A stretch of 62,668 nt of DNA from Paenibacillus ihuae (GTDB lineage Bacteria; Bacillota; Bacilli; Paenibacillales; Paenibacillaceae). Position numbers and translations under genes: made by a program. Positions 20,142 to 48,751 of the stretch are shown here, in pieces. Numbering within the stretch: position 1 is the stretch's first letter; each line of letters begins with the position of its first letter. The stretch covers positions 85,988 to 148,655 of the forward strand of contig NZ_LN831204.1 of NCBI RefSeq assembly GCF_001368795.1. Direction: 5' to 3'. Below the pieces are notes generated by a model. The model saw only the letters and a list, made by a program, of their open reading frames with translations, had not been told where the DNA came from and searched no databases.

Positions 20142-20336
20142 CATCAAAATGTCTTCAAGCTGATGTATAATAGTGTAGTCGATCTGTCGAATAAAGGATT
20201 TACCAGTAGGATTGTGGAATAAATCCAATCGAACTATTAGGCTGGTATTACGGAGTGATCTTTCATGAAGTTTTATAAATGGAAGGGAAATTTCAAACCT
20301 ATTAGAACTACCACTATAATAATTGGAGGAATAAAA

Positions 20337-21884
20337 ATGTCAAGTGCAGCACAACGTGCCCAATTACAATCCCAAATCTGGAAAATAGCCAATGATGTCC
20401 GTGGCTCAGTAGATGGATGGGATTTTAAACAATATGTTTTAGGAACGCTTTTTTATCGCTTCATTAGCGAGAACTTTTCTAGCTATATTGAAGCTGGAGA
20501 CGAAAACGTCAAGTATGCAGACCTTCCGGATGAGATTATAACGAAAGAAATCAAAGAGGATGCCATTAAAACAAAAGGCTATTTCATATATCCAAGTCAA
20601 CTGTTTGCTAATACTGCGAAAACTGCTAATACAAATGAAAGCTTGAATACTGATTTAGCTGCTATATTTTCTGCTATTGAAAGTTCAGCAAATGGTTATC
20701 CATCTGAACTCGATATTAAAGGTTTATTCGCTGATTTCGACACGACAAGCAATAGACTAGGGAATACTGTGAAAGATAAAAACAGTCGTCTAGCTGCTGT
20801 CATTAAAGGTGTTGGAGGGCTTAATTTTGGTGGGTTTGAAGAAAGTCACATTGACCTTTTTGGTGATGCCTATGAGTTTTTAATCTCTAATTATGCTGCC
20901 AATGCTGGTAAATCTGGAGGAGAATTCTTCACACCGCAATCAGTGTCTAAACTTATTGCTCAATTAGCTATACATAAACAAACAACCATAAATAAGATAT
21001 ATGACCCTGCAGCTGGTTCAGGTTCATTGCTATTACAAGCAAAAAAACAGTTTGATGCTCATATTATCGAAGATGGGTTTTATGGACAGGAAATTAACCA
21101 TACAACTTATAACCTTGCTCGTATGAATATGTTTTTACACAACATAAATTACGATAAGTTTAATATCGCTTTAGGAAATACACTATTAGACCCTCAATTT
21201 GGTGATGAAAAGCCATTTGATGCCATTGTATCGAATCCACCTTATTCCGTAAATTGGATTGGTAGTGATGATCCAACCCTTATTAATGATGAGAGATTTG
21301 CTCCTGCAGGAGTATTAGCGCCAAAATCTAAAGCCGATTTCGCTTTTGTACTTCATTCGCTTAGTTACCTTTCAAGTAAGGGTCGTGCAGCTATCGTTTG
21401 TTTCCCAGGTATTTTTTACCGTGGTGGTGCAGAGCAGAAAATTAGAAAGTACCTGATTGATAATAACTTTGTTGAGACGGTTATTTCATTAGCACCTAAC
21501 CTTTTTTATGGGACTTCAATAGCGGTTAATATCTTGGTTCTTTCTAAGCATAAAACGGATAATAAAACTCAATTTATTGATGCAAGTGGAGTAGATTTCT
21601 ATATAAAAGAAACGAATAATAATGTACTTACAAATGTACATATTGAGAAAATTATGAAAGTGTTTGACAGCAAAGAAGACGTTGATCATGTAGCAAAATC
21701 CGTTGATTATGAATCAATCGTTCAAAATGATTATAACCTGTCTGTGAGCTCCTATGTGGAAGCAAAAGACACAAGGGAAGTCATTGATATAAATGAGCTG
21801 AATGCAGAAATAAAAACGACTGTAGGAAAGATAGATAGGCTTCGTGCTGAAATTGATGAGATTATTGAGGTGATTGAATCATGA
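20337..21884 (+). CDS. hsdM: type I restriction-modification methyltransferase subunit HsdM
   Basis: ATG 20337 is chosen because GGAGGA lies just upstream. 515 residues. N-terminal helical domain ('[32 protein letters not shown]'), then the N6-adenine methyltransferase core with '[13 protein letters not shown]', SAM motif '[14 protein letters not shown]' and catalytic NPPY near residue 300. The C-terminal coiled coil contacts HsdS. With two HsdM and one HsdS it forms the methylase that protects host DNA. The stop overlaps the hsdS start by four bases. Confidence 0.95.
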
Positions 21885-23059
21885 TGAAGCCGAACTTAAT
21901 GGAGAAACTGCTTGATGGGGTTGAGGTGAAATGGGAGTTTCTAGATAAAGTTTCAGATTATGAACAACCAACGAAATATTTGGTAAAATCAAAAAATTAT
22001 AGTGATGATTTTGATATACCCGTTCTAACAGCAGGTAAAACTTTTATACTCGGATATACAGATGAAATAGATGGTGTCTATAAAGCATCAAAGAATCCTG
22101 TTATTATTTTTGATGACTTTACAACAGCAAATAAATGGGTTGATTTTGATTTTAAAGCTAAATCATCAGCAATGAAGATGATTACATCAAAAAATGAATC
22201 AGAAGTTCTATTAAAATATATTTATTATTGGCTAAATACTTTACCTACTGAACTGGTTGAAGGAGATCATAAACGTCAATGGATTAGTAATTTTGCTAAT
22301 AAATTAATCCCCATCCCAGACCTTCAAATCCAAGAGGAAATAGTTCGTATTTTGGACACTTTTACAGAGCTTACAGCAGAGCTTACAGCAGAGCTTACAG
22401 CTCGTAAAATGCAATATAAATATTATCAAGATAAGTTGCTGACTTTTGAAGAGGGTGACGTTGAATGGAAGACGTTGGGGGAAATTGGTGAGTTTGTACG
22501 GGGCAACGGATTGCAGAAAAGTGATTTTGCAGAGAGTGGTGTAGGCTGTATCCATTATGGTCAAATTTATACTTACTACGGGAATTTTGCATATCAAACA
22601 AAATCTTTCGTTTCACCAACATTGGCAACCAAGTTGAGAAAAGCTCAGAAAGGCGATTTGATTATTGCGACTACAAGTGAAAATATTGAAGATGTTTGTA
22701 AACCTCTGGTTTGGCTGGGTGAGGATGAGGTTTGTGTCAGTGGAGAGACTTATATTTTTAAGCATAATCAAAACCCAAAGTATTTGGCTTATTATCTCCA
22801 AACCCCTATGTTTTTTGATTATAAAAAGCAAAATAGAACAGGAACAAAGGTTATTCGAGTACATGGGGATAAACTGGAAAAATTTAAAATTCCGATACCT
22901 TCTCTTACCGAACAAAACCGTATCGTATCTATTTTAGACAAATTCGACGCCTTGACATCCTCAATCACTGAAGGCTTACCTCGTGAAATAAAGTTGCGTC
23001 AAAAACAATATGAATACTACCGTAATATGCTTCTTAGCTTTCCTAAAGGGGAGGTTTAA
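21881..23059 (+). CDS. hsdS: type I restriction specificity subunit HsdS (EcoR124-like)
   Basis: 392 residues; starts ATGATG overlapping the hsdM stop. Two target-recognition domains (about 20-135 and 190-340) are each followed by a helical conserved region ('[17 protein letters not shown]' and '[17 protein letters not shown]'). The first spacer carries tandem TAEL units (residues about 164-173), the hallmark of EcoR124I/EcoR124II-type subunits, in which repeat number sets the spacing of the bipartite DNA target. It decides the sequence recognised by the whole complex. Confidence 0.93.
22367..22402 (+). repeat. three 12-bp TAEL-encoding repeats in hsdS
   Basis: Three tandem units of GAGCTTACAGC(A/T). 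Copy-number change by slippage keeps the frame and adds or removes four residues in the spacer helix. In the EcoR124 pair this alters the length of the non-specific gap of the recognition site. Confidence 0.85.
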
Positions 23060-23061
23060 AA

Positions 23062-26000
23062 ATGGCAGATTTCAAACCCATCGCGGAATCAAACAACTTT
23101 ATCGTTTTGGATAAATACACCAAGATAAATCAACAAGGAGTTGGTTATCAAACAGAAGCTGATTTAGAACGAGAACTCATTCAAGATTTAGTAAATCAAG
23201 GTTATGAACATTTGCCAAAGTTAAACACTCTTGAAAAAATGCTTGCTAATGTGCGTGTGCAACTGCAAACTCTTAACAATGTGCAATTCTCAGATGCTGA
23301 ATGGATTAGATTTTGTGAGCAGTTTTTAGATAAACCCAGTGATAACCACATTGATAAAACCCGTAAAATTCATAACGATTATATTTATGACTTTGTTTTT
23401 GATGATGGGCATATTCAAAACATTTACCTAGTAGACAAAAAGAATATGGCCAACAATAAAGTGCAGGTCATTTCCCAATTTGAACAAAAAGGAACGCAAG
23501 CCAATAGATATGATGTTACCATTTTAGTCAATGGCTTACCTTTAGTACAAGTAGAGCTTAAAAAGCGTGGGATTGCCATTCGTGAGGCCTTTAATCAGGT
23601 TCATCGATATAGTAAAGAGAGCTTGAATTCCGAAAACTCTCTGTTTAAATATTTACAGATTTTCGTGATTTCGAATGGGACAGATAGCCGTTATTTTGCT
23701 AATACGACGAAACGTGATAAGAACAGTTTTGATTTTACTATGAATTGGGCAAAATCGGATAATACCCTGATTAAAGATATAAAAGATTTCACGGCTACAT
23801 TTTTTCAGAAAAAAACTTTATTGAATGTTCTACTGAAATATTCCGTTTTTGATGTCAGCGATAACTTGCTTATTATGCGTCCTTATCAAATTGCCGCTAC
23901 AGAAAGAATTTTATGGAAAATTGAAAGCTCATACCTAGCTAAAAATTGGAGAACCACTGAAAGCGGCGGATATATTTGGCATACAACGGGTTCGGGGAAA
24001 ACACTTACGAGTTTTAAAGCAGCTCGTTTGGCTACTGAACTGGATTTTATAGATAAAGTATTTTTTGTAGTGGATCGGAAAGACCTGGATTTTCAGACGA
24101 TGAAAGAATATCAGCGTTTTTCTCCTGATAGTGTGAATGGTTCAGAAAGTACCGCAGGATTAAAGCGTAACATTGAAAAAGATGATAATAAAATTATTGT
24201 GACGACGATTCAAAAACTGAATAACCTAATCAAAAGTGAAACAGAGTTACCTATATATAATAAGCAAGTGGTATTTATTTTTGATGAAGCCCACCGTTCG
24301 CAATTTGGTGAAGCTCAAAAAAATATCAATAAAAAGTTTAAGAAGTTCTATCAGTTCGGATTCACAGGTACGCCTATATTCCCGGAAAATGCGTTAGGTT
24401 CTGAAACGACTGCTTCTGTCTTTGGTCGAGAGTTACACTCTTATGTCATTACGGATGCCATTAGAGATGAGAAAGTTTTAAAGTTCAAAGTAGATTATAA
24501 CGATGTACGTCCCAAGTTCAAAACAATTGAAACAGAACAGGACGAGAAAAAGCTATCGGCAGCAGAAAATAAAGAAGCATTACTACATCCTGAACGAATC
24601 AGCGAAATTTCTCAATATATTCTTAATAATTTTAGAGTAAAAACCCATCGACTAAATGCGAATGGAAAAGGATTTAACGCCATGTTTGCTGTGAGTAGTG
24701 TTGACGCAGCCAAACTCTACTATGAATCATTAAATAACTTACAACAGGGAAGCAGTAAACCCCTTAAGATTGCGACCATCTTCTCCTTTGCTGCGAATGA
24801 AGAGCAAACTGCGATAGGTGAAATTCTGGATGAAACGTTTGAACCCACAGCTATGGATAGTAGTGCAAAAGAGTTTTTAACTTTAGCCATTAAAGACTAC
24901 AATGCCATGTTTAAAACCAATTATGGCGTAGATAGTAAGGAATTTCAAAATTATTATCGTGACCTTGCTAAACGAGTAAAAGACAAAGAGATTGATTTGT
25001 TGATTGTTGTAGGAATGTTTCTAACTGGTTTTGATGCACCTACATTAAATACTTTATTTGTTGATAAAAATCTTAGGTTTCATGGTTTAATGCAAGCTTT
25101 TTCGAGAACAAATCGTATTTATGATTCCACCAAAACCTTTGGAAATATTGTTACTTTTAGAGATTTAGAACAAGCAACCATAGACGCTATCACTCTTTTT
25201 GGGGATAAAAGCACTAAAAATGTGGTTCTGGAAAAAAGCTACAAAGAGTATATGGAAGGATTCACTGATGTAGCAACGGGTGAAGCCCGTCGTGGTTATG
25301 TAGACGTAGTAAAAGAGCTACAAAAGCGTTTCCCTAATGTTGATGCGATTGTTACTGAAAAGGATAAGAAAGAATTTGCTAAACTTTTTGGTGAATATTT
25401 GCGTATTGAAAATATCCTACAGAACTATGATGAATTTTCAGGATTAAAAGCTTTACAAGCAGTAGATATGACTGACCCTAAAGCTTTAGAAGAATTTAAG
25501 TCTACACACTATGTAACAGATGAAGATATAGCTGCTATGCAAGAGATTCAAGTGTTAGAAGAAAGAGCGATTCAAGATTATCGTTCTTCGTATAATGACA
25601 TTCGTGACTGGCTTCGCCGTGAAAAAACGGGAAAGAAAAAGACAATTCCTCTATTGATTGGGATGATGTTGTCTTTGAAGTAGATCTTTTAAAATCCCAA
25701 GAGATCAATTTGGATTACATTCTTGAACTTATTTTTGAGCATAACAAAAAAGTAAAAGATAAAGCATCCTTGGTTGAAGAAGTTCGTCGCATCATTCGGT
25801 CTAGTGTAGGAAACCGTGCGAAAGAAAGCTTAGTCGTCGATTTTATCAACCAAGCTGATTTAGATAAAATTCAAGATAAAGCAAGTATTATTGATACCTT
25901 CTTCTCATTTGCTCAAACGGAGCAAAAACGTGAAGCAGAAGAATTGATTACTACTGAAAATCTTAATGAAGAGGCTGCAAAAAGATATATTTTAACTTCA

Positions 26001-28831: not shown

Positions 28832-30673
28832 ATGGATGTTACGCCTGATAAGCAAAATATAGATAAGGTTTTCTCTAGTACAACATACTATATTGATTTT
28901 TACCAACGTCAGTACAAATGGACAGACGAAGCAGTTCGTAGATTGTTAGATGATATCTTCTACAAATTTAACATTGAATATCAGCGCTATAAAGACAGTG
29001 ATATCGAATTAGATAAACTGGTAGAACGGTATTCCTGGTACTATTTAAATACTTATGTAACTAATAATATTGAAGGTAAAATTTATGTGGTTGACGGCCA
29101 GCAACGACTAACAACGTTAACCCTAATCTTGATCAAGCTGATGCATACCGCAAAAGACGCTAATTCGGAATTAACTGACTGGCTGGCGAACAAAATTGCA
29201 GGTCAATCCGGGTTTAAGAAAGAGTTTTGGATGAATCATGAACAACATAAAGTATCAATGTCAGGACTCTTAGCTGGAAAAAAGCCGGAGGATATCGATA
29301 CTTCCTCGGGAATTACAGCTTTCAATATGGTTAATAACTATAGAGTCATATCGACAATACTGGACAAAGAGTTATTAGATAAGCAAAAGTTGGAGAGCTT
29401 TATCTTCTACTTCCTTAAAAGGTTGGTACTTATTAATTTAAATGTCGAACAAACCGATGTTCCCATGGTATTTGAGGTTATCAATGATCGTGGAGTAAAA
29501 CTCAAACCTTACGAGATCTTAAAAGGGAAACTGCTAGGACAGATTGATAAGGACGAGCTGGATCAGTTGGGATTAAATGAAATCTGGGATACGCAAGTGA
29601 ACAATATCAATCAGTATAATGATGATGAGATTGATGAGTTTTTTATATATTTCTTGCGATCAAAGTTCGCAAAAACGGTTGGTGATACTCGTAAATTTGA
29701 TCGCAATTATCATCGGGCAATATTTCTCCCTGAAGTTGATAGGGAATTAAAATTGCAGCATAGCCCGAAAGATGTAAAACGGTTTTTGCTAAATGAGTTT
29801 AGGTATTATTCAGAGCTATATTGTAAAATCCTTAGTTATTACGATAAACCTCAAGATGATTACTTGAGTGTTTATTATAATGGATTAACTGAGATGGATA
29901 GCCAATTTCAGTTAATATTGTCTGCCTGTGTCTTAAACGACTCTCAGGAACAGGAAAAAATCAAATTGATAGCGCGTGAAGTAGATCGTTTATTTTCGCT
30001 ATTACAATTGCAGAAGAGCTATGATAGCAATGACTTCAATGAGGCGACATATTTGATATCCGCTGAGATTAGAGGACAGGACATTGCAATCATTAAGTCG
30101 GTATTTGATAAATATCTGTTAAGAATGTTATCCGATGCAAGAGGCGTAACTACAATGCAGCCAATTTCATACAGCTATTTTAAAGACACGGGTATCGAGC
30201 TCAATAAGCGCTTTAAAAGATACTTTTTTGCCCGGATCGAACAGTTTATTGCTGATCAGACTAAAATGAATATGAAACATTCTTTTTATGATCTGGTAGC
30301 AAATACAGGTTCAGTGAACGGCTTTCATATTGAACATATACTCGCTAACAATACAGAGAATTTAAACGCATTTGGAGATGATGTAGAGCGCTTTGAGAGT
30401 GAGAGAAATAGATTAGGTGGACTTCTGTTATTAAAAGGAAAAGATAATATCTCCAGCAGCAATGAGCTTTACTTAAACAAGCTAAAAACGTATGCCAACA
30501 CACTATACTGGAACGAAACGCTTCGTCAGGATAACTATAAAACAAAAATCGATTTTTTAAATATGATGAAATCGTTCAATCTTAAGTTTAGACCCATGGA
30601 TCAATATGGTCCTGATGAACTTGAAGAGAGACATATGCTATTGTATAACTTGATTTGTATTATTTGGGCATAA
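28832..30673 (+). CDS. DUF262/DUF1524-type (GmrSD-like) HNH nuclease
   Basis: 613 residues; TAGGAGGA precedes the ATG. N-terminal DUF262 signatures are 'YQRQYKWTDE' (about 25-34) and 'VVDGQQRLTTLTLILIKL' (DGQQR near 87-91), a ParB-like nucleotide-binding fold. The C-terminal part has 'FHIEHILANN' near 498 and 'NRLGGLLLL', matching the DUF1524 HNH endonuclease (HxEHI and NxLGNL variants). This fused GmrS+GmrD architecture is typical of type IV-like systems that cut modified phage DNA. It is followed after 18 bases by the ankyrin/MORN gene, so they are probably co-expressed. Confidence 0.85.
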   Translation: MDVTPDKQNIDKVFSSTTYYIDFYQRQYKWTDEAVRRLLDDIFYKFNIEYQRYKDSDIELDKLVERYSWYYLNTYVTNNIEGKIYVVDGQQRLTTLTLILIKLMHTAKDANSELTDWLANKIAGQSGFKKEFWMNHEQHKVSMSGLLAGKKPEDIDTSSGITAFNMVNNYRVISTILDKELLDKQKLESFIFYFLKRLVLINLNVEQTDVPMVFEVINDRGVKLKPYEILKGKLLGQIDKDELDQLGLNEIWDTQVNNINQYNDDEIDEFFIYFLRSKFAKTVGDTRKFDRNYHRAIFLPEVDRELKLQHSPKDVKRFLLNEFRYYSELYCKILSYYDKPQDDYLSVYYNGLTEMDSQFQLILSACVLNDSQEQEKIKLIAREVDRLFSLLQLQKSYDSNDFNEATYLISAEIRGQDIAIIKSVFDKYLLRMLSDARGVTTMQPISYSYFKDTGIELNKRFKRYFFARIEQFIADQTKMNMKHSFYDLVANTGSVNGFHIEHILANNTENLNAFGDDVERFESERNRLGGLLLLKGKDNISSSNELYLNKLKTYANTLYWNETLRQDNYKTKIDFLNMMKSFNLKFRPMDQYGPDELEERHMLLYNLICIIWA

Positions 30674-37664: not shown

Positions 37665-38705
37665 ATGTCTAGTATAACGCATACTAAGTTTCCGCACACA
37701 CCCAGGAGACGATCATTTCTTCCATTCCGTATATTGCTATACTTTGTAGCTTTTACTATGGTCATAATATCAATCCTAATTTTTGTCCCGATTAAAGAGA
37801 GGACTTATATGCTTCCCTCAAACCTGGCCCCTTCACAAGAACTATTTCGTAACCCAATCGATAATGGAATCTACATTCCAAGTGTGATTGAAGAAAAAGC
37901 AGATAATTTTCTTGAATATTTTTTCCTAAAGGCAAAATACGGGGAATTACTCAGCGAGTTTGAAGAATTAGACGATCAAGTATTGTCTACTGCATTCACC
38001 ACAACGAAAGATAATCCAGGTCATGTTGAAATCGTAGATAACAATCTTATGACAGATAGTTTACTCTATGTTGCACTGCCGGCTTACATAGCAGGAAGCT
38101 ACGCAGCAGGGCTACCAGCTGACTTTAGTTATGCATTTGAATTTACTAGTACAACTCTTGAGCTTGAAGATCTACTTGGCACAACCATTATCACAATTGA
38201 CAGTGCACCTCCCACAATAGAGAAAGTAAACGAACTGGTTCGTTCAAAAACACCTCATGAATTTGAATTAAGGACCTATAAGGGAAACATTGTGAATAAG
38301 ACAGCATCAATTTATGGAATAACAGTAAGCGCACACTATACCATTAACGATCTTTGGAGATTTAATGAAATGATGCTTTTTGAACTTGGGAATGTATCTG
38401 GTGATTCCGGTGGTGTTGCGACAGCCTATAATGTCTTCTTAAAAATGCAAGGGCTTGGTAATAAAAATGGAAAGTTTGTAATAACTGGTGCAATTAATAT
38501 TGATGGTACTATAAGAAGCGTTGGAAGTATCAAAGCAAAGACATATTTGGCAGTAAAAAAGTCTATGCCGGTTATGTTCGTACCTGATGGCGTTAATTAC
38601 ACTGAGGCGATAAATATGAAAGAGTCAATGAATAGCGACATAAAAATCGTACCGATTAAAAACCTTGATGACATTGAAAGATATTGGAACAATAGAAAGG
38701 GATGA
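37665..38705 (+). CDS. membrane-anchored Lon-like (S16) protease
   Basis: 346 residues; GACAAGGAG precedes the ATG. One transmembrane segment (about 22-45), an outside-facing body, a PDZ-like segment (about 155-205, 'LLGTTIITIDSAPPTIEKVNELV') and an S16 domain. Catalytic Ser is in 'VSGDSGGVATA' near 247, and Lys in 'IRSVGSIKAKTYLAVKK' near 289. The order membrane anchor-PDZ-Lon matches YlbL/SdrC-type proteins and lacks the AAA+ ATPase of true Lon. It lies 35 bases after the regulator gene, an unusual pairing next to an integrase. It may cleave a membrane or exported signalling protein. Confidence 0.8.
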   Translation: MSSITHTKFPHTPRRRSFLPFRILLYFVAFTMVIISILIFVPIKERTYMLPSNLAPSQELFRNPIDNGIYIPSVIEEKADNFLEYFFLKAKYGELLSEFEELDDQVLSTAFTTTKDNPGHVEIVDNNLMTDSLLYVALPAYIAGSYAAGLPADFSYAFEFTSTTLELEDLLGTTIITIDSAPPTIEKVNELVRSKTPHEFELRTYKGNIVNKTASIYGITVSAHYTINDLWRFNEMMLFELGNVSGDSGGVATAYNVFLKMQGLGNKNGKFVITGAINIDGTIRSVGSIKAKTYLAVKKSMPVMFVPDGVNYTEAINMKESMNSDIKIVPIKNLDDIERYWNNRKG

Positions 38706-39182: not shown

Positions 39183-41102
39183 TTGGAAGAATTTATCGAG
39201 AGAGCACTTGGCCAGGGAGGCCATTTATCCAAGCTCGTACAAGGTTATAGCCCGAGAGCCCCACAGATTCTCATATCTACTAAGGTCGGCATGGCGCTCG
39301 AATCTGAAAAGCACTTAATGTGCGAAGCCGGTACCGGGACAGGCAAATCTCTTGGTTACTTGATCCCTGCAGCACAATGGGCCGTCAAAAATAAAAAGAC
39401 CGTTGTGGTATGCACCCATACGATCCCACTCATGACCCAAATCGTAAATGTCGAGCTCCCACGGGTCCAGCAAATTCTGAAAATGGAGAATCTGAATCTC
39501 AAATATCAATTGGTTAAAGGCAAGTCTCACTATGTTTGCTCAGCAAAACTGGAGGGATTGTGGCAAGAAATGCTTCGGAGTAACAATCGGGATTCCAAAG
39601 TTGTTCAGCGGATCTTCTCTAAAGTGAACAAAGAGGGTATAGGCGACCGAACGGCCTTGGGTTTTGAAGTAGAAGATGCTCTGTGGAATCGAATTTCTGC
39701 CTCCTCTTGTCTGTCAATCAAGAAGCCTGATAACTGTATGCTGGAAGACTTGAAGGAGAAGATGCAAAAGTCTCACATCATAGTCACTAACCATGCTTAT
39801 TTTTTCAGTGACCTGATCATGAGGAAAAAGACCGGTAACGGTTCTCTCCCCCCATATGATGCTGTTATTTTCGATGAAGCTCACGAGTTAGAGGACGTGT
39901 GCTGTAACATTTTCGAAAAACAGGTGGATTTAACCCGATTTGAGATACTTTTCGATTCTCTCTTCAAACGTGATGCTTTCAATGACCTTGATAAAAGCAA
40001 CCAACTTGCCCTTACGCAGCTGCGCCAGTCGTTCATACAAAAGATGGACGATGTTTACATATCAGTGGGGAAGGGGATGAAGAACGATGCCTTCAAGTTG
40101 TTAGGCGAGAAGATTGATATGAGCAGCGTTTGCTCTATCCTGACGGAGTTTATCGAAAAGATCAAATCGCTAAATGTCCGCGGCGTCTCCGACATCTTGG
40201 AGCGACTTTTCGAAGGAAACGATGACCTTGATTTCATCGGAGAGAATGCGAAACGTTCTTGGGCGTATTGGGCGACGGTTAAAGGACGTGATAATGTCAC
40301 GCTTCACGCGGCCCCGCTCTTTCCCAAAGTGGTTCTAGCCCGTGGTTTATTCGATAAGGTGCCGGTCATTCTCGCGAGTGCCACAATGTCTACCAATGGC
40401 TCATTCGCATTTTTTGCCGGCCGGTGTGGTGTAAAGGACTACGATAGCATCATGGTGGGTAGTCCTTTCGACTATGAGAATAAAACTATGATTATCTGTC
40501 CTGACGACGCTCCTGAACCAGATAGCCCTAACATCATCCAGTATACCGTCGAAAAATTACAGGAAATTCTAATGTATTCCGGTGGGCGGATGCTCGTTTT
40601 ATTTACCAGCTTTGAAACGATGAACCATGTCGCTCGCAAATTTCAGCAGCATTGTATTGATCGGGGTTACAACTTACTCGTTCAGTTCCCAGGATGCGAT
40701 CGAGAAAAGATTATTAGCGATTTAAAGACCAATCCGCGAACGATCGTCCTGGGCTGCTCCAGCTTTTGGACAGGCGTAGACGTCGCTGGGGACGCCTTAA
40801 CCACCCTTGTCATCGCCAAGCTCCCATTCCCGCAGCCGAATGACCCGTTGATCCAGGCACAGCTTGAGTTGATCGAAAAGGCAAAGCGGAACAGCTTCGT
40901 GGATTATATGTTCCCGAAGATGATGATTAAAATGAAGCAAGGTTTTGGACGATTGAATCGCTCCATGAAATGTCAGGGCGCAGTAATCATCCTGGATAAC
41001 CGCATGCGAACGAAGCGATATGGCAAAACCGTCTTGAAAAGCCTGCCGAAGTGCAAATATTCCGAAAAACTTGAAGATATTGTTCGTATTTTACCCATTT
41101 GA
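39183..41102 (+). CDS. DinG/XPD-type superfamily 2 DNA helicase
   Basis: TTG start after AGGAGGCG. 639 residues. Walker A 'EAGTGTGKS' (about 47-55), 'CTHTIPLMTQ' (motif Ia), 'VIFDEAHELEDVC' (DEAH near 230), 'ILASATMS', and motif VI 'QGFGRLNRS'. Cysteines near 118, 183 and 191 lie where the XPD/DinG iron-sulfur cluster sits, though a fourth ligand is not obvious. DinG helicases unwind 5'-to-3', including R-loops, and occur in plasmids and type IV CRISPR loci. Here it heads the element module with a YdjM-like gene 15 bases downstream. Confidence 0.88.
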   Translation: MEEFIERALGQGGHLSKLVQGYSPRAPQILISTKVGMALESEKHLMCEAGTGTGKSLGYLIPAAQWAVKNKKTVVVCTHTIPLMTQIVNVELPRVQQILKMENLNLKYQLVKGKSHYVCSAKLEGLWQEMLRSNNRDSKVVQRIFSKVNKEGIGDRTALGFEVEDALWNRISASSCLSIKKPDNCMLEDLKEKMQKSHIIVTNHAYFFSDLIMRKKTGNGSLPPYDAVIFDEAHELEDVCCNIFEKQVDLTRFEILFDSLFKRDAFNDLDKSNQLALTQLRQSFIQKMDDVYISVGKGMKNDAFKLLGEKIDMSSVCSILTEFIEKIKSLNVRGVSDILERLFEGNDDLDFIGENAKRSWAYWATVKGRDNVTLHAAPLFPKVVLARGLFDKVPVILASATMSTNGSFAFFAGRCGVKDYDSIMVGSPFDYENKTMIICPDDAPEPDSPNIIQYTVEKLQEILMYSGGRMLVLFTSFETMNHVARKFQQHCIDRGYNLLVQFPGCDREKIISDLKTNPRTIVLGCSSFWTGVDVAGDALTTLVIAKLPFPQPNDPLIQAQLELIEKAKRNSFVDYMFPKMMIKMKQGFGRLNRSMKCQGAVIILDNRMRTKRYGKTVLKSLPKCKYSEKLEDIVRILPI

Positions 41103-41857: not shown

Positions 41858-42196
41858 ATGATCGTAGATCGATCCCTTTTACATCAAAACCCAATCATCC
41901 GAGGTTACTTTGAAGTCATCAAGGAGAAGTTCAGCCTTACCAGACGGGAAGGAGAGATTCTACAGCTGCTTATGCTTATGGGTGGTAGCAACCGTGAAAT
42001 TGGTTGTTCCATCAACATTTCGGAGAAAACCGTAAGGAATCATGTAGCCAGCATCCAAAGTAAGCTTCACGTGAAGTCGAGTAGGGGGATACAGGCAGTC
42101 GTTTTCCGTGATACGTTGCTGCCGGTTTTTCTGGAAGCATTACAAACACCACATAAAGCAACCGCGGTTCATGATCCTGTTACTTCATTCCATTAA
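41858..42196 (+). CDS. LuxR-type helix-turn-helix protein, 112 aa
   Basis: AGAAGGAGCC precedes the ATG. The domain 'FSLTRREGEILQLLMLMGGSNREIGCSINISEKTVRNHVASIQSKLHVKSSRGIQAVV' (about 25-85) is a GerE/LuxR DNA-binding domain. No receiver domain, so it resembles single-domain regulators such as GerE. It may control the operons of the element. Confidence 0.8.
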   Translation: MIVDRSLLHQNPIIRGYFEVIKEKFSLTRREGEILQLLMLMGGSNREIGCSINISEKTVRNHVASIQSKLHVKSSRGIQAVVFRDTLLPVFLEALQTPHKATAVHDPVTSFH

Positions 42197-42776: not shown

Positions 42777-42878
42777 ACGGCAGATTGCCGTTAATAAAAA
42801 TTGAGGCGTTATTAACCAGGAGAACATAAGTGTACCTTATTTAGGTGCGCTTTTTTTGTTCTTCCTGGTTTTTTTTTC
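42777..42878 (+). promoter_or_regulatory. leader 1: nested-terminator hairpin before gene 42905
   Basis: A small hairpin ACGGCA/TGCCGT (42777-42791) is followed by an outer stem (42814-42825 with 42858-42870, one bulge) that encloses a complete inner terminator (AAGTGTACC/GGTGCGCTT, 42828-42836 and 42844-42852, then seven T). The outer stem is itself followed by eight or more T. The binding site AAGGAGG comes 20 bases later. The same layout recurs at 47630-47726. A TTGTGC...TATACT promoter lies near 42700. Confidence 0.65.
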
Positions 42879-42904: not shown

Positions 42905-43231
42905 ATGCGCATAAACCTGTCTCGCTTAACGGCAAATTTACCGCAGAGGGAAGAGTACCAGCAGAGGTATACACCTGGTCTCTTTCGCGCTATTGAAGCC
43001 GCTCATTTTGAGACTAACAGTGCGAGCATTGATTGGAACGGGTTTACATTAGCGGAAGCACAACAGGCATTGGATATGGCAATGAACTATGTAGATACTG
43101 AGTATGTGGAAGAAATGGATGGTTCTCCGAATGAAGGGAATGCCATTCACGAGTTTCTTCACAACAATGAATTTATCTATCATTTCAAGAGAGCCAAGCC
43201 TATGCCGTCCGAAGATGTAGATTTCTTTTAA
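42905..43231 (+). CDS. hypothetical protein heading the ubiquitin-like operon, 108 aa
   Basis: ATG 42905 after AAGGAGGAAG. Mostly helical, ending in 'EFIYHFKRAKPMPSEDVDFF'. No recognised domain; size and position would suit an accessory protein of a PRTRC-type cassette. Ten bases before the next gene; expression is probably gated by leader 1. Confidence 0.6.
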   Translation: MRINLSRLTANLPQREEYQQRYTPGLFRAIEAAHFETNSASIDWNGFTLAEAQQALDMAMNYVDTEYVEEMDGSPNEGNAIHEFLHNNEFIYHFKRAKPMPSEDVDFF

Positions 43232-43240
43232 GAAAGGTGC

Positions 43241-43996
43241 GTGGAGACATTGGAACAATCGTATATGTGTCAAGAGCAGATCGGCCAGATGCAGGCGACT
43301 TATGATGCTTTTCTACTCATCAAAATCGCCCATGACGCTGGCATTGATGTAGTGAGCGATTCTATCGACTTTTACTGCTATGACTTTGGGAGTCAGGCTG
43401 ATACCTTTTGGGTGTGCATGAAAAGGATCTTCGGAGAAGTGGTTCTTACAAGTGAGAAGCTGAGTGATTGGGGTACGTCAAAGTGTACATACCGCGTACC
43501 GCTTCCTGAGCTTTGTGATTTTTACCCTCTTTTGAAGGATGCTGAACGTAGCCGGTACATCAACAAGTTTAATGCTATGCTCCGCTCGGAGGACGATTTT
43601 TTTGGCGAATTCGAGATGGAGGGCATGATGGCTGGGAACTGTTTTCACATCACGCTATCGGGTGATTATGGCTTGTATTCTCCGCTGCTTGCACAAATGG
43701 TGGCAATTCGTAACGAGGTTCATGAGCTCGTACGGACCCGGAGAGCGCAGCTTGTCAACGGACTGCGGGGTATTGTAATGGCGAAGATGGTTTATGACCG
43801 ATCCGGTATCGTTGTGGATGTGTCATTGGAGGACCAACTCGATGTGGTATTCTCCAGCATCATGCAGCAATGCGATAATCCTAGGATTTCGCTTGCTACT
43901 GACCATTCGCTCTCTTTCGAGACAATGATTACAACGCTAACCAGCACGCTTGATCAGGCGGTAATAAATACAAACCGAGAGGATGTGCCAGCATGA
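43241..43996 (+). CDS. hypothetical protein of the ubiquitin-like operon, about 250 aa
   Basis: GTG 43241 (or TTG 43250) after AAAGGTG. Alpha/beta N-terminal half ('DFYCYDFGSQADTFWVCMKRIFGEVVL'), helical C-terminal half. It overlaps the start of the E2-like gene by four bases, indicating coupled translation. Not recognised; conserved synteny would be needed to name it. Confidence 0.6.
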   Translation: METLEQSYMCQEQIGQMQATYDAFLLIKIAHDAGIDVVSDSIDFYCYDFGSQADTFWVCMKRIFGEVVLTSEKLSDWGTSKCTYRVPLPELCDFYPLLKDAERSRYINKFNAMLRSEDDFFGEFEMEGMMAGNCFHITLSGDYGLYSPLLAQMVAIRNEVHELVRTRRAQLVNGLRGIVMAKMVYDRSGIVVDVSLEDQLDVVFSSIMQQCDNPRISLATDHSLSFETMITTLTSTLDQAVINTNREDVPA

Positions 43997-44694
43997 GTAC
44001 AGCTGCACAATTAGACAAAGATACCGGAACAAAAGTGGTCATTACAATGCGCGATTATGGCTTGCCAACGATTGAGGAGTTTCATGAAGGAGTAAGCTTG
44101 GGAGTCGGCTCCTATACCCACGAGACCATCGCACGGAGTGTGATACAGTCTCTGGATTATACAGCCATAAAGACACCCATCTTGCCTCGTAATGCGATCT
44201 ACTATTCGGAGGGGCCCTCGAAGCGGTATATCATTCTGGAGATCCCGCCGCATTGCCGAAAAGTCTTTTACCACAATGCGGAGATTGAGGATGTTCCGTT
44301 CCCACGTCTTTTGTTCTGTTTCGAATTAATGGTGCGAGAAACAACTATGGACATTACTGATGTGTATATTGCGGCGCTGGAAGACCAACTCATTCTTAAT
44401 GAAGAATCAAAGGTCTATTTCTACCCGTACACGAACGTCGCTAATTCATTTTCGGTATGCTGGGGCGGTCAAAAACTGCCATCCATCGAACGAGTTTCCC
44501 AGCTGGCAACCATTCCTGAGATGTTCTTTAACTCGCCGAATTCAGACTGCTATTACACAGGGTCGAATATCAGCAAGTTGCCGTACCGAGAGCTCGTCGA
44601 ACAGATCAAGGGAACTTCGTTTCCGGATGAGTATCTGAAAGAGACTGGATATAAACTCCAGGAGTGGATCCAGAAGATGACCAGTTCGATTTAA
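43993..44694 (+). CDS. E2-like (PRTRC protein B-type) ubiquitin-conjugating fold protein
   Basis: 233 residues. The order 'TPILPRNAIYYSEG', 'VPFPRLLFCFEL', 'VYFYPYTNVANSFSVCWGGQKLPS', 'IPEMFFNSPNSDCYY' and 'FPDEYL' matches the PRTRC protein B family, predicted to have an E2-like fold. The Cys in 'SVCWGG' near 155 is in the position of the conserved conjugating Cys. It would accept the ubiquitin-like protein from the ThiF/E1 enzyme encoded two genes downstream. Function in bacteria is unproven; assignment is from pattern recognition. Confidence 0.65.
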   Translation: MSTAAQLDKDTGTKVVITMRDYGLPTIEEFHEGVSLGVGSYTHETIARSVIQSLDYTAIKTPILPRNAIYYSEGPSKRYIILEIPPHCRKVFYHNAEIEDVPFPRLLFCFELMVRETTMDITDVYIAALEDQLILNEESKVYFYPYTNVANSFSVCWGGQKLPSIERVSQLATIPEMFFNSPNSDCYYTGSNISKLPYRELVEQIKGTSFPDEYLKETGYKLQEWIQKMTSSI

Positions 44695-44754
44695 ACAGCG
44701 TTAGTGCATATGGAGCATATAAAAATCTAAATTATTATCTGGAGGTATTTGGAA

Positions 44755-46146
44755 ATGTCTAACAACAACGATCAGTTTGACTTGTTCTCTTACTTTGGAG
44801 GCAGTGATGCTTTTACTACCCCCTCGCAGAAGACTCATGAAGTGAAGCAGGAGCAGAACGCTTCCCTTTCTTCAGAACCATCCGCAAGCACCGAAACGAC
44901 AATCATTTCCGCTACGTCCCGAGTTTCCGAAGTCGACCAGAATGACAACAAGGTCATACATCTCGCTTCGAAACGCTTACGGGAGCAGCAGGAGAAGGCG
45001 CGTCCGGAGGATGCTTGTGAGGACGCCTGTGAGGGTGCTGACACCGAGGATGAGAATGAAGCGAACAATTTGAGCGATGAAGAAAGCGAAGCGCTCGCTG
45101 ACGACGTTGATCCAGATGAAGCTGCGGCCAACAAAGCCGAGCTTGCAGGTGGACAAGCCAATGCGGAAGTTAAAGCCGATGATAAATCGGCCGTCACCAC
45201 TGGTGCAGCAGCTGCCAAAAAGGAAGAGAAAAAGCCGGAGTTTAACCATGCTACGTTTATCGCGTATGCTGGACACACTCTCTCCATCACAAAGTTTTTC
45301 GATGCGGAGCAGTTGGCCGGACTCGACCTTGAAGCTGTTCGGAAGCGGTTGGAGAGAGACTTCCCGGAATTGTCTAAACAGCGGACCAAAATGGATTGGG
45401 ATGAGAAGAAAAATCTCATCTGTCCTATGGTCACCGGAGGGAAGAAAGGAGCCTATTTCAGCCAAGGGCTGAAAGGCTTCTTTTTTCGTTCAAAGGACCT
45501 TTTCGCAAACAGGGAGCCGATCAACATCCTGGCTGCCCGTGACGGATACTACGAAGTCCGTGAGAATGCGATTGGAGTATTCGTTGCCCAAGTTGAAGTC
45601 ATTGAGGAACTGGAGCCTTGCCGTGAAGGGTTTAAATTGAATCTCCCGAAGATTCCGGAGAACCTATTCGCCCAGCTTGTTTCCTTTTTTAGTGATTATG
45701 CCATGAACGAAGTCGAAGTGATGGGCGTTTTCTACTGGGACACGGATTCGAAGAGCTATGTGCTGGATGTGCCGTACCAGGAAGTTTCCAAGGTCAAAAT
45801 CGACGTACATTATAGTGATTATCCGGCTAATTTCATTAAGGTGGCCGAGATTCATTCACATAACACGATGAGCGCATATTTCAGTGAAGTCGATAATGCC
45901 GACGAGCTTGGAACCATGCTATATGGAGTAGTCGGCCGCCTGCAGCAAGGACTTTGTGAAGTCACCTATGATTTACGAACTCGCGCAGGAGTTGCCGGCC
46001 GCTTCATTCCTCTGGAACCTAATACCTTCATCGAGGGGGACTTTTCGAGGGATAAGGTCAATAGCCTCGCTCCCATGAAGTATCCAGAATCCTGGCACAA
46101 CCGCGTTACAATCATCAGCTCAAAAAAAAATGGGGGTAATAAATAA
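44755..46146 (+). CDS. ubiquitin-like domain fused to a JAB/JAMM peptidase
   Basis: ATG 44755 is nine bases after GGAGG. 463 residues. Residues 1-160 are acidic and disordered. About 165-230 resembles the small PRTRC protein C/ubiquitin-like family ('FIAYAGHTLSITKFF', 'AVRKRLERDFPELS', 'DEKKNLICPMVTGGKKG') and ends in GG near 228-229. About 230-440 is a JAMM domain with 'VAEIHSHNTMSAYFSEVD', i.e. HxH...SxxD (about H367, H369, S377, D380), the zinc isopeptidase motif. It may release or recycle its own ubiquitin-like part. It overlaps the E1-like gene by one base. Confidence 0.75.
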   Translation: MSNNNDQFDLFSYFGGSDAFTTPSQKTHEVKQEQNASLSSEPSASTETTIISATSRVSEVDQNDNKVIHLASKRLREQQEKARPEDACEDACEGADTEDENEANNLSDEESEALADDVDPDEAAANKAELAGGQANAEVKADDKSAVTTGAAAAKKEEKKPEFNHATFIAYAGHTLSITKFFDAEQLAGLDLEAVRKRLERDFPELSKQRTKMDWDEKKNLICPMVTGGKKGAYFSQGLKGFFFRSKDLFANREPINILAARDGYYEVRENAIGVFVAQVEVIEELEPCREGFKLNLPKIPENLFAQLVSFFSDYAMNEVEVMGVFYWDTDSKSYVLDVPYQEVSKVKIDVHYSDYPANFIKVAEIHSHNTMSAYFSEVDNADELGTMLYGVVGRLQQGLCEVTYDLRTRAGVAGRFIPLEPNTFIEGDFSRDKVNSLAPMKYPESWHNRVTIISSKKNGGNK

Positions 46147-47117
46147 TGATCAAATTAAGCGACTATCATACAAAATCGTCAGGCTATGGTACGCCCAAGG
46201 TTTCCAACATCCTCTACTACTGCGTTTTGCTCGGCTGCGGAGGTAATGGCGGATATGCGGTGCAGCGCATTACAAAAATGCTGTATGCATTTAACAATGT
46301 CCGGTCGTTCCTTATGCTGGCCGATCCAGACACGGTAGAGGAAAAGAATCTTTTGCGGCAGCCCTTCATTCCTTCCGATATTTCCAAGAAAAAATCGGAG
46401 GTTTTGGCAAAACGCTACGGATCCACTTATGGGCTAAAAATCGGTTCTTACTCCGACTCTTATGTTGAATCAGTGGAGCAGTTAGAAAGCCTTTTTTCCC
46501 ATACGGATTATTTGTATGAAGAAGGCCAAATTATCCAAAAGGTTCTTATTGGTGCAGTGGACAATGACTTCTCCCGCAAGATCATGAATGATTACTTCGA
46601 GAAGACGGACGACATAATTTACATCGACGCCGGCATCGAAGGAGTGTATCTACCGGAGGGTGGTCAAAAGCCAGAGCATCTTTGGTCAGAGGAAGAGAAA
46701 CTGGAGCACCTGGATAGCGGGTATTCGGGCCAAGTCGTTGTGGGGGTCAAGAAGCAGGGAGCGGTTATCTTACCACCGCTCGATAGGGTCTATCCGATCG
46801 ACACGAAGGATGCAATCCCACCATCCCACAGCTGCGGCGTTGAGCCGTATCAACCACAACGGATGATCGCTAATGAGATGGCGGCATTTCAAATCACAAC
46901 AATCATGAATGAACTCTTTGCCACAAATTCAATTCTTGTGAATGTTCTTAATTTCAATGCCCGCACGAGTAACTGCCGTCCTATCTATGCAGAGGACGTG
47001 TTAACCGCTCCGTTTGTAGTAGAGAAGGCTGCTTCGATAACCAACTCCGCTAACGAACCGGAGAAAGGGGATGAAGATGATTTTGAAGAACACGACGAAG
47101 AGGAAGTGGAAGAGTGA
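46146..47117 (+). CDS. ThiF/E1-like ubiquitin-activating enzyme
   Basis: 323 residues. Nucleotide-binding 'LLGCGGNGG' (29-36), 'ADPDTVEEKNLLRQPF' (metal-binding Asp and the Arg finger), 'GAVDN' near 140, and a candidate catalytic Cys in 'HSCGVEPYQPQRMIANEMAA' near 230. This is the E1/ThiF fold of PRTRC-type cassettes. It would adenylate the C-terminal glycine of the ubiquitin-like partner and pass it on through a thioester. The acidic C-terminal tail ('EPEKGDEDDFEEHDEEEVEE') is notable. Last gene of the operon; a palindromic terminator follows at 47177. Confidence 0.82.
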   Translation: MIKLSDYHTKSSGYGTPKVSNILYYCVLLGCGGNGGYAVQRITKMLYAFNNVRSFLMLADPDTVEEKNLLRQPFIPSDISKKKSEVLAKRYGSTYGLKIGSYSDSYVESVEQLESLFSHTDYLYEEGQIIQKVLIGAVDNDFSRKIMNDYFEKTDDIIYIDAGIEGVYLPEGGQKPEHLWSEEEKLEHLDSGYSGQVVVGVKKQGAVILPPLDRVYPIDTKDAIPPSHSCGVEPYQPQRMIANEMAAFQITTIMNELFATNSILVNVLNFNARTSNCRPIYAEDVLTAPFVVEKAASITNSANEPEKGDEDDFEEHDEEEVEE

Positions 47118-47750: not shown

Positions 47751-47927
47751 ATGTCGTCTTCTAAGAGGTTTAAAAAAACGGTGAATTACTACCTGCAAAA
47801 GACAACTGGAGTATTCACGTTAAGTCCTACTGCTACGAAGGCCACTTCAAAAAAGGGCATCGTCGGCGTTTTTTATCTCTGTTCCTTCTTTTTTGGGGAT
47901 AGATATGTTCAATGGCAATTAACGTGA
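47751..47927 (+). CDS. small basic protein, 58 aa
   Basis: ATG 47751 after CAAGGAGG. N-terminal 'MSSSKRFKKTVNYYLQKTTG', a Lys-rich middle and a hydrophobic segment 'GIVGVFYLCSFFFG', possibly membrane-associated. Its end overlaps the start of the PAPS-reductase-like gene, so it may be a translational coupler. Controlled by leader 2 if real. Confidence 0.4.
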   Translation: MSSSKRFKKTVNYYLQKTTGVFTLSPTATKATSKKGIVGVFYLCSFFFGDRYVQWQLT

Positions 47928-48751
47928 TGGGTTTAAAACGAGGTGCAGAAGCCTTTGTAATTCCACAACTACCGTCTGAAATGCTCCCGCTCCACGAATA
48001 TGATGAAGTCCATGTAAACGTCTCTGGAGGTGCGGATAGCGTGGCCACTGTCCTTGTGGCTCTCCACGGCTATAATATTCCGAAGGAAAAGCTCAAACTG
48101 GTTCATATGCGCGTAGACGGAGACCCTAACGATCCGACAAAACGGCAATTGTTTGACTGGCCACAGACGGACGGTTACCTGGAGTACATGAGCAAGGTAC
48201 TAGATCTACCCCTGATCGTTTTATGGGGCGATCTAAGCCTGGAAGAGCGAATCCGTGAGCGTGAGATGTTTCCATCTTCTCAATGCCGCTTCTGTACATC
48301 GTATATGAAGAGGGATGTGTACGCAAAATGGGTGCGTCAGTTCGATAACGTCAAAATCCTGCTCCTAACCGGCGAACGTTCCGAGGAATCAAAGGAACGG
48401 GCACAGAAGCCAATTTTCAAACTTCATTCGGCCCATGCTACGGGACGGAAGAACCGGATTGTTCATTGGCTTAAACCGATTAAGGCCATGCTTAAAACCG
48501 AAGTTAAGCAACTCTGCGCGGATTACGGCATCGATCTCCACCCTTGTTATGAATGGGTCAGCCGCTGCTCCTGCAAATTTTGCATTTTCAATACGTCTGC
48601 CGAAATGAGCCGCACATCGCAGCTTTTCCCGGAGGATTGGGCGTATCTGAAGCAAATGGAACGTGAGCTCGGACACACCCTGAAGAGCAAGAATGGAATC
48701 TCTCATTCGCTTAGCGCCTTCATCAAAGAGGATCAGATTCCCCTGTTTTGA
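47912..48751 (+). CDS. PAPS-reductase-like PP-loop protein
   Basis: 279 residues. PP-loop 'VNVSGGADSVATVLVAL' (about 33-50) and Cys motifs 'CRFCTSYMKRD' and 'SRCSCKFCIF' are those of phosphoadenosine-phosphosulfate-reductase-family proteins, related to DndC and to phage-borne members. Such enzymes adenylate a substrate and handle sulfur or bind an iron-sulfur cluster. No DndB/D/E partners are present. In mobile elements the family's substrate is unknown. Confidence 0.85.
   Translation: MAINVMGLKRGAEAFVIPQLPSEMLPLHEYDEVHVNVSGGADSVATVLVALHGYNIPKEKLKLVHMRVDGDPNDPTKRQLFDWPQTDGYLEYMSKVLDLPLIVLWGDLSLEERIREREMFPSSQCRFCTSYMKRDVYAKWVRQFDNVKILLLTGERSEESKERAQKPIFKLHSAHATGRKNRIVHWLKPIKAMLKTEVKQLCADYGIDLHPCYEWVSRCSCKFCIFNTSAEMSRTSQLFPEDWAYLKQMERELGHTLKSKNGISHSLSAFIKEDQIPLF

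Follow-up and report, generated by a model that had tools for sequence, protein, structure and literature searches.

A PRTRC-like cassette of Paenibacillus ihuae for putative ubiquitin-like conjugation, with a JAMM-fused tag and a candidate clamp-binding motif

Bacterial cassettes predicted to serve ubiquitin-like conjugation were described from their sequences in 2006, and hundreds of plasmids carry related ones. The type 6d operons described at that time comprise genes for a ubiquitin-like protein (Ubl), a JAB protease with an N-terminal alpha+beta region, an E1-like enzyme, an E2-like enzyme and a rapidly diverging extra protein, and were listed in Gram-positive bacteria (Bcer, Bthu) and cyanobacteria (passages of PMC1779556). 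Here we describe a cassette of this kind from Paenibacillus ihuae. It lies in a stretch of 62,668 nucleotides (the window; positions 85988-148655 of a 187,553-base contig) and consists of a same-strand run of five genes, at 42905-47117 of the window, that encode protein X, protein Y, an E2-like enzyme, a fusion of a ubiquitin-like segment (the tag) with a JAMM domain, and an E1-like enzyme. Five co-directional genes had been proposed from the letters of the window in what we call the original prediction, and all the open reading frames (ORFs) are present. Three observations are new here: the tag ends in KKG, and this end follows a rule that involves the presence of a JAMM; the N-terminus of the tag carries a clamp-like motif; and DnaN is encoded on most of the cassette plasmids examined.

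As far as the passages of PMC1779556 go, the core of type 6d, with E1-like, E2-like, JAB and Ubl proteins encoded together, is present in the window, and two of the members listed there, Rhodoferax and Anabaena variabilis (Avar), were also matched in our survey. The type 6d tag is described as a small stand-alone protein, whereas the window tag is fused ahead of the JAMM domain and has a long N-terminal segment with the clamp-like motif. The extra protein of type 6d is described as largely helical, unlike the window cassette. A His located C-terminal to the Cys is called absolutely conserved in type 6d E2 proteins, but no His is found among the invariant or nearly invariant columns of our 15-row E2 alignment. 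The region preceding the JAB domain in type 6d (JAB-N) is given as alpha+beta with a conserved Arg and Trp; the window fusion has a modelled alpha+beta region in which, by eye, the Arg is seen in the alignment and the Trp is not, and the Cytobacillus and Sutcliffiella rows lack this region.

PRTRC denotes a ParB-related, ThiF-related cassette. Relatives of the PRTRC A, B and ThiF proteins (NCBIfam TIGR03734-TIGR03742) are shared by the window in the same B-A-ThiF order, and X and Y stand upstream of the E2 gene in the same placement as PRTRC E and F. All three cut-offs are missed by the window proteins: the E2 scores 46.4 bits against PRTRC B (cut-off 131.45), the C-terminal half of the fusion 48.0 bits against PRTRC A (cut-off 101.8), and the E1 60.9 bits against PRTRC_ThiF (cut-off 144.75). 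PRTRC ParB (TIGR03734) was found in none of the five Bacillota plasmids tested, compared with three of three proteobacterial ones; the window's contig gave no match to ParB_N. PRTRC C is a separate Ubl gene, whereas the window Ubl is fused to the JAMM domain. The assignment of X as PRTRC E and of Y as PRTRC F was rejected, as no profile similarity was found (hhalign probability ≤0.1). Because there is no ParB, the cut-offs are missed, a separate C gene is lacking and neither E nor F can be recognised, the cassette is, judged by its sequences, a PRTRC-like, Bacillota variant rather than PRTRC as defined. The original prediction took PRTRC cassettes to be described mostly from proteobacterial plasmids; Gram-positive type 6d operons were reported in 2006 (passages of PMC1779556), and the Gram-positive presence is itself not new. 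Text matches to PRTRC in Rhizobium tropici papers concern the plasmid name pRtrC, not the cassette.

The E2 passes the Pfam family Prok-E2_D (PF14460) with 43.6 bits against a cut-off of 25, instead of Prok-E2_B, which had been put forward as the family to check; the Cys expected near residue 155 is Cys156, which is invariant (15/15). The E1 exceeds the Pfam ThiF cut-off (35.4 bits), and its predicted glycine loop and Cys, the latter at residue 230, are both invariant in 14 of 14 sequences. It is closer to PRTRC_ThiF than to MoeB/ThiF-type biosynthetic models, the best of which, ThiS-adenylyltransferase, gives 24.8 bits (cut-off 159). As aligned, E1, E2 and JAMM keep intact candidate catalytic residues.

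Two further groups of systems are comparable. BilABCD and Bub share Ubl, E1, E2 and JAMM with the window, and structures similar to the JAMM model include a bacterial Ubl-deubiquitinase, 8tyx (best Foldseek match 8tyx_B), and BubCD 9ea4. Unlike in these systems, the window Ubl is fused upstream of its own JAMM and replication genes lie nearby in several plasmids; BilB has a CEHH motif (passages of PMC11354881), whereas the window E2 belongs to the Prok-E2_D family. In the phage tail TAPI/TAPK pairs (Iyer type 5) the JAB is predicted to free the Ubl at its last Gly, and one prophage fuses both, but the passages of PMC1779556 list no E1 or E2 with them, unlike the window cassette.

Tag end and JAMM presence

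The fusion starts with a low-complexity segment, continues with a ubiquitin-like domain that has a KKG end, and closes with the JAMM domain. In the model, residues 161-230 form a strand-strand-helix-helix-strand-strand arrangement with block pLDDT of 81-92, in line with the beta-grasp fold expected for residues 160-235, while pLDDT falls below 50 at residues 231-234, around KKG. Profile comparison relates the segment to PRTRC C; a structure search with the whole model was uninformative about the Ubl fold, its list being filled by the JAMM domain. The JAMM domain, which had been recognised by its HSHN...SEVD pattern, scores 19.1 bits against Prok-JAB, under the cut-off, and retains its signature in 50 sequences: E321, H367 and S368 are invariant and H369, S377 and D380 are conserved in at least 90% (463-aa numbering). 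The modelled fold of the Ubl segment, the E2 assignment and the E1 grouping, on which the original prediction had staked itself, all came out in its favour. Its GG as the end of the tag did not hold, since this upstream GG varies among relatives; the conserved end is K(K)G, with a last Gly that is invariant across the 50-row alignment. The cleavage point likely lies after KKG, not GG.

We compared tag ends between cassettes with and without a JAMM. In all nine JAMM-less cassettes (Bacillus velezensis, B. halotolerans, B. licheniformis, Thermoanaerobacterium, Pseudomonas putida pWW53, Marinobacter, Alteromonas and two further genomes) the tag stops at the conserved Gly, with KG or NG right at the stop codon. 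By contrast, 36 of the 38 JAMM-bearing cassettes have 2-257 residues past this Gly, or a fused JAMM. For eight of the nine JAMM-less cassettes, TIGR03735 matched nothing in the rest of the record or genome either; the exception is the B. velezensis plasmid, which has a JAMM in a second cassette. As no extended tag without a JAMM was seen among the counted cassettes, JAMM is probably the maturase of the tag. Extension that always comes with a JAMM, and a JAMM that sometimes comes without extension, would fit a maturase that also deconjugates. The rule lends independent support to the proposal that the fusion is a self-processing precursor, with the likely cut moved from GG to KKG. Iyer et al. 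described poly-Ubl operons (type 6e) and predicted that JAB proteases set phage and fused Ubls free; relative to their passages on Ubl release (PMC1779556), the rule linking JAMM presence to tag extension appears to be new.

The counts exclude stretches shorter than 5 kb and duplicates of one cassette (L033, L034, L035, L037, L061, L068), as well as cassettes without a single detected Ubl (L021, L036, L039, L040, L067, L086, L089, L090, L091). Among the excluded, L036 is extended according to the first profile, and L089 is JAMM-less with, by eye, a 122-aa ORF before E1 that has an NKG end. Close relatives (Brevibacillus-type L069-L073; L080-L082) were kept in the 38, and split or interrupted genes within this set (L062, L063, L081) were left unrepaired.

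Some results speak against the maturase interpretation or the Ubl assignment on which it builds. In two JAMM-bearing cassettes, from Peribacillus (L088) and Sphingobium (L100, which was entered by eye), the tag already ends at the Gly, so that the JAMM may act as a deconjugase as well, or even mainly. Bacillota and cyanobacterial JAMMs score only 38-49 bits against TIGR03735, and hence some JAMM absences may be misses. The window Ubl by itself matched no Pfam or NCBIfam family, and its sequence gave chance-level matches only against PDB sequences.

Tandem tags were also encountered. The tag gene of the second cassette on the B. velezensis plasmid pAD3 (L086:3259-3993) encodes four head-to-tail Ubls, each with an AGTKG end, and has E2, JAMM, E1 and DNA polymerase III alpha genes nearby. 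On a 244-kb IMG/VR contig, a two-Ubl tandem protein (L040:6203-6580) lies ~1.6 kb upstream of E2, JAMM and E1 genes.

A clamp-binding-like motif and DnaN on cassette plasmids

The segment ahead of the Ubl diverges fast yet retains a single short motif near its start. The motif reads QFDLF in the window, QMDLF in Thermobacillus, QTDIF in Cytobacillus and QETLF in Brevibacillus-type loci, while canonical-type variants are found in L065 (QLSLF) and in L025 and L095 (QLALF, which is the B. licheniformis form). Clamp motifs are given as QL[S/D]LF or QxxLF in the passages of PMC12309361, and QFDLF fits the Q-x-x-L-F form. The pattern Q.[DST][LIM]F occurs within the first 60 residues of 21 of the 43 tag proteins (two of which have no segment ahead of the Ubl) compared to 7 of 1813 other ORFs of at least 100 aa. 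After grouping of the tags at 50% Ubl identity, 11 of the 21 clusters had Q..[LIM]F within their first 80 residues, against a shuffled mean of 0.27 (other ORFs: 59/1811). Free-standing Bacillota tags retain the LF motif (IF in Peribacillus), and those of B. licheniformis, B. halotolerans and B. velezensis also have the Gln; thus, the motif travels with the tag rather than with the protease.

We tested 24 of our 29 plasmid records for DnaN, leaving out five proteobacterial ones (L096-L100). DnaN is encoded on 20 of the 24 (E ≤ 0.001), and 16 exceed the curated cut-off. A tblastn search with Cytobacillus DnaN, a different method applied to plasmids of all sizes, matched 344 of 72,556 plasmid records; all five Bacillus plasmid records with DnaN are also among the E1 matches listed. 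The distance between dnaN and the E1 gene is at most 7 kb in 9 of 21 records (expected 1.9), or in 6 of 21 when dnaN matches below 60 bits are disregarded (expected 1.7, P-value 0.005), both figures being uncorrected for kinship. In Cytobacillus, Sutcliffiella, Virgibacillus and Niallia dnaN is immediately upstream of X. Other replication genes are also found nearby: dnaX follows E1 in Lysinibacillus and overlaps it in L. sphaericus, with the delta' gene next, and holB (delta') lies ~5 kb downstream of the cassette in Alkalihalophilus and Peribacillus.

A number of observations count against a connection to the clamp. QFDLF fails the E. coli consensus Q-aliphatic-x-[LM]-[FL] (passages of PMC11139829) with its Phe at position 2, and relatives often have Ile at position 4, where that consensus has Leu or Met. 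The strict form Q..[LM]F is present in 5 of 21 clusters (shuffled 0.12; 40 of 1811 other ORFs), and P. rhizovicinus, P. sonchi and others are without the Gln. The proteobacterial and cyanobacterial C proteins inspected have no N-terminal extension and so no tag motif. Four of the 24 cassette plasmids have no DnaN match, three of the nine nearby dnaN matches are weak (24.7-54.7 bits), and in the case of the window the cassette and the contig's dnaN lie 59 kb apart. The link between cassette and DnaN is an association; a shared large-plasmid lifestyle could explain both, there being no size-matched control.

In Trichormus variabilis, which we take to be the Anabaena variabilis mentioned above by synonymy, the protein encoded directly upstream of the Ubl gene (L030:2483-2965) has a C-terminal QLSLF, a canonical clamp motif.

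Layout, neighbours and distribution

The features of the cassette are collected in Table 1; the database start sites of X, Y and the fusion are those in the database versions of the window's own proteins.

Table 1. Positions of cassette features and of the adjoining upstream gene in the window
Feature	Position	Strand	Remarks
LuxR/GerE-type helix-turn-helix (HTH) regulator	41858..42196	+	directly upstream of the cassette
Protein X	42905..43231	+	108 aa; first cassette gene; database start 42905, ORF opens at 42845
Protein Y	43241..43996	+	251 aa as ORF; database start 43265 (243 aa)
E2-like conjugating enzyme (Prok-E2_D / PRTRC B-like)	43993..44694	+	profile match and alignment
E2 candidate catalytic Cys156	44458..44460	+	invariant, 15/15
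Ubiquitin-like/JAMM fusion	44755..46146	+	database version 463 aa; ORF from TTG at 44749, 465 aa
Clamp-binding-like motif QFDLF	44773..44787	+	residues 9-13 of the 465-aa ORF; low-confidence (disordered) N-terminus
Ubiquitin-like (beta-grasp-like) segment with KKG end	45223..45450	+	profile and structure model
KKG, putative JAMM cleavage point and end for E1 activation	45442..45450	+	alignment; JAMM-less tags
Small alpha+beta region ahead of JAMM, at the position of Iyer's JAB-N	45475..45594	+	model, block pLDDT 72-75
JAMM metalloprotease domain	45625..46125	+	E323, HSH 369-371, S379, D382 (465-aa numbering)
E1-like activating enzyme (PRTRC ThiF-like)	46146..47117	+	acidic C-terminal tail
E1 Cys230	46833..46835	+	invariant, 14/14

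X and Y, left unrecognised in the original prediction, are so here too. X has no Pfam match and only chance-level NCBIfam matches. All 23 aligned members end in F-F or F-I, mostly following acidic residues, as in EDVDFF and EDDFI; the one column without variation is that of the penultimate Phe. This end is a possible C-terminal docking tail, reminiscent of an SSB tip. Y is modelled as an alpha+beta protein (AlphaFold2 pLDDT 84) and has no PDB match at E ≤ 0.001.

The contig also encodes spore-germination, SpoVAD and dipicolinate-synthase proteins and its own DnaN, at C7:71839-72828, and the source bacterium is likely spore-forming. The gene order of the window recurs on a 246,230-base plasmid of Paenibacillus rhizovicinus, and by analogy with it the window's element is taken to be plasmid-like. 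To this extent the predicted mobile element stands; no DnaA or ParB_N match was found on the window's contig (both ParB_N matches of the genome are on contig C2).

The cassettes of P. rhizovicinus and Thermobacillus likewise have an HTH gene and an ATP-dependent helicase gene upstream; the window has a YoaA/DinG-type helicase gene upstream, at 39183-41102. The product of 37665-38705 has a weak match to the Lon-protease C-terminal (S16) domain (22.4 bits). A PAPS-reductase-like protein, with SspD as its top PADLOC model, is encoded 0.8 kb downstream of the cassette (47912-48751), and such a gene recurs downstream in the P. rhizovicinus and Thermobacillus plasmids. Type I restriction-modification HsdM, HsdS and HsdR genes and a GmrSD-like restriction protein are found at 20265-25683 and 28832-30673.

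Searches of PLSDB matched 85 records with E1, 75 with the fusion, 47 with E2, 10 with X and 9 with Y, of which the best 40 (E1), the best 60 (fusion) and all 47 (E2) are listed. The 47 E2 records are 111-387 kb long and nearly all from Bacillales, plus Thermoanaerobacterium and Clostridioides; the E1 and fusion matches listed add Rubrobacter, cyanobacteria, Chlorohelix and Rhodoferax. With the Rhodoferax E1 as query, 393 plasmid records were matched. E1 matches were detected in 12 of 295 Paenibacillaceae genomes (E ≤ 0.001; some are fragments) and in 15 of 398 genomes across the class (E ≤ 1e-20), the source genome included in both. The fusion alignment found 7 loci when run against one genome per species, and the survey therefore relies mainly on PLSDB plasmids and diversity-picked genomes; the sample is non-random and includes the 29 plasmid records. 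Among viral contigs, nothing was found with the E2 query, and the fusion alignment revealed two distant cassettes.

Profiles of X and Y, seeded with neighbours picked by position, also detect the non-seed loci L035, L036, L038, L069-L075 and L092-L095, and find nothing in L067, L068 and L077-L082. The order X-Y-E2-tag/JAMM-E1 is kept in most loci with X and Y; B. licheniformis and B. halotolerans show E1-X-Y-E2-tag instead, and in Alkalihalophilus and Lysinibacillus the E2 and fusion genes are set apart by several others.

Possible roles of the cassette

We lean, without great confidence, towards a pathway that starts with release of the tag by the JAMM, continues with its attachment by E1 and E2, and is tied to the clamp by the motif. 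The JAMM would remove everything after KKG, as suggested by comparative genomics, since extension is seen only with a JAMM and the JAMM-less tags counted all end there. E1 would then activate the exposed Gly, and E2 would transfer the tag onto proteins, predictably at the DNA sliding clamp. To judge by motif and context, the mature tag would retain its N-terminal Q-x-D-L-F and dock on plasmid-encoded or host DnaN, where it may either mark the clamp or tie tagged proteins to it; X and Y may be partners, as adaptors or substrates. A bolder version, less likely than not, makes the cassette a bacterial counterpart of PCNA ubiquitin/SUMO signalling: a plasmid-encoded tag with a clamp-docking motif of its own, cut from its protease after KKG, would be conjugated at the replication fork to the plasmid clamp or to proteins that are then tied to it.

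A conceivable though less than probable alternative keeps Ubl conjugation and JAMM maturation and drops the clamp. The partner bound by the LF motif would then be E2, X, Y or some further protein, and the proximity of dnaN would reflect nothing but the clustering of replication genes on large plasmids. This would agree with a motif that deviates at position 2 from one of the published consensuses (and among relatives at position 4), with a [DSTNA][LI]F core that is found more often (15 of 21 clusters, 1.6 in shuffles) than its Gln form, and with a dnaN more than 20 kb away in 12 of 21 records. On the other hand, the Gln form is well above its shuffled level, canonical QLSLF and QLALF do occur, and DnaN is rare among plasmids overall.

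We consider it improbable that the cassette acts in anti-phage defence by tagging phage proteins, in the manner of Bil, Bub or CBASS operons. Its E1, E2, Ubl and JAMM content is that of BilABCD (passages of PMC11354881), its JAMM model resembles 8tyx and 9ea4, and restriction systems are present within the window. Yet at E ≤ 0.1 neither E2 nor the fusion finds a match among the PADLOC (2023) models, the E1 matches PADLOC E1-E2 models weakly (best 1.2e-4), and the cassette adjoins dnaN or dnaX, or lies a few kb from holB, in several plasmids. A sulfur-carrier pathway of the ThiS/MoaD type, in which E1 would adenylate the Ubl for thiocarboxylate formation and the JAMM would free the carrier with no protein conjugation, is very unlikely: JAB-Ubl-E1 sets are known in sulfur operons (passages of PMC1779556) and the recurring PAPS-reductase-like gene lies close by, but the cassette includes an E2-family enzyme of its own, whose Cys is invariant, and an E1 closer to PRTRC_ThiF than to biosynthetic ThiF, no rhodanese match was found in the 30 window proteins (a subset of the ORFs) scanned with Pfam, and the PAPS-reductase-like protein itself best fits SspD.

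Among the literature matches listed, which largely leave subscription journals uncovered, there was none to a function for such cassettes or to a link between conjugation and the sliding clamp or between plasmid DnaN and ThiF; mentions of PRTRC, by titles and abstract starts, were genome, plasmid and transcriptome reports or unrelated uses. The KKG rule provides an exact predicted cleavage site and mature tag, and the clamp motif, together with the DnaN linkage, a first concrete place to seek substrates of the pathway. The cassette offers a bacterial setting for asking how ubiquitin-type control of replication clamps arises. If the comparison with PCNA holds true, large plasmids would steer who works at their forks.

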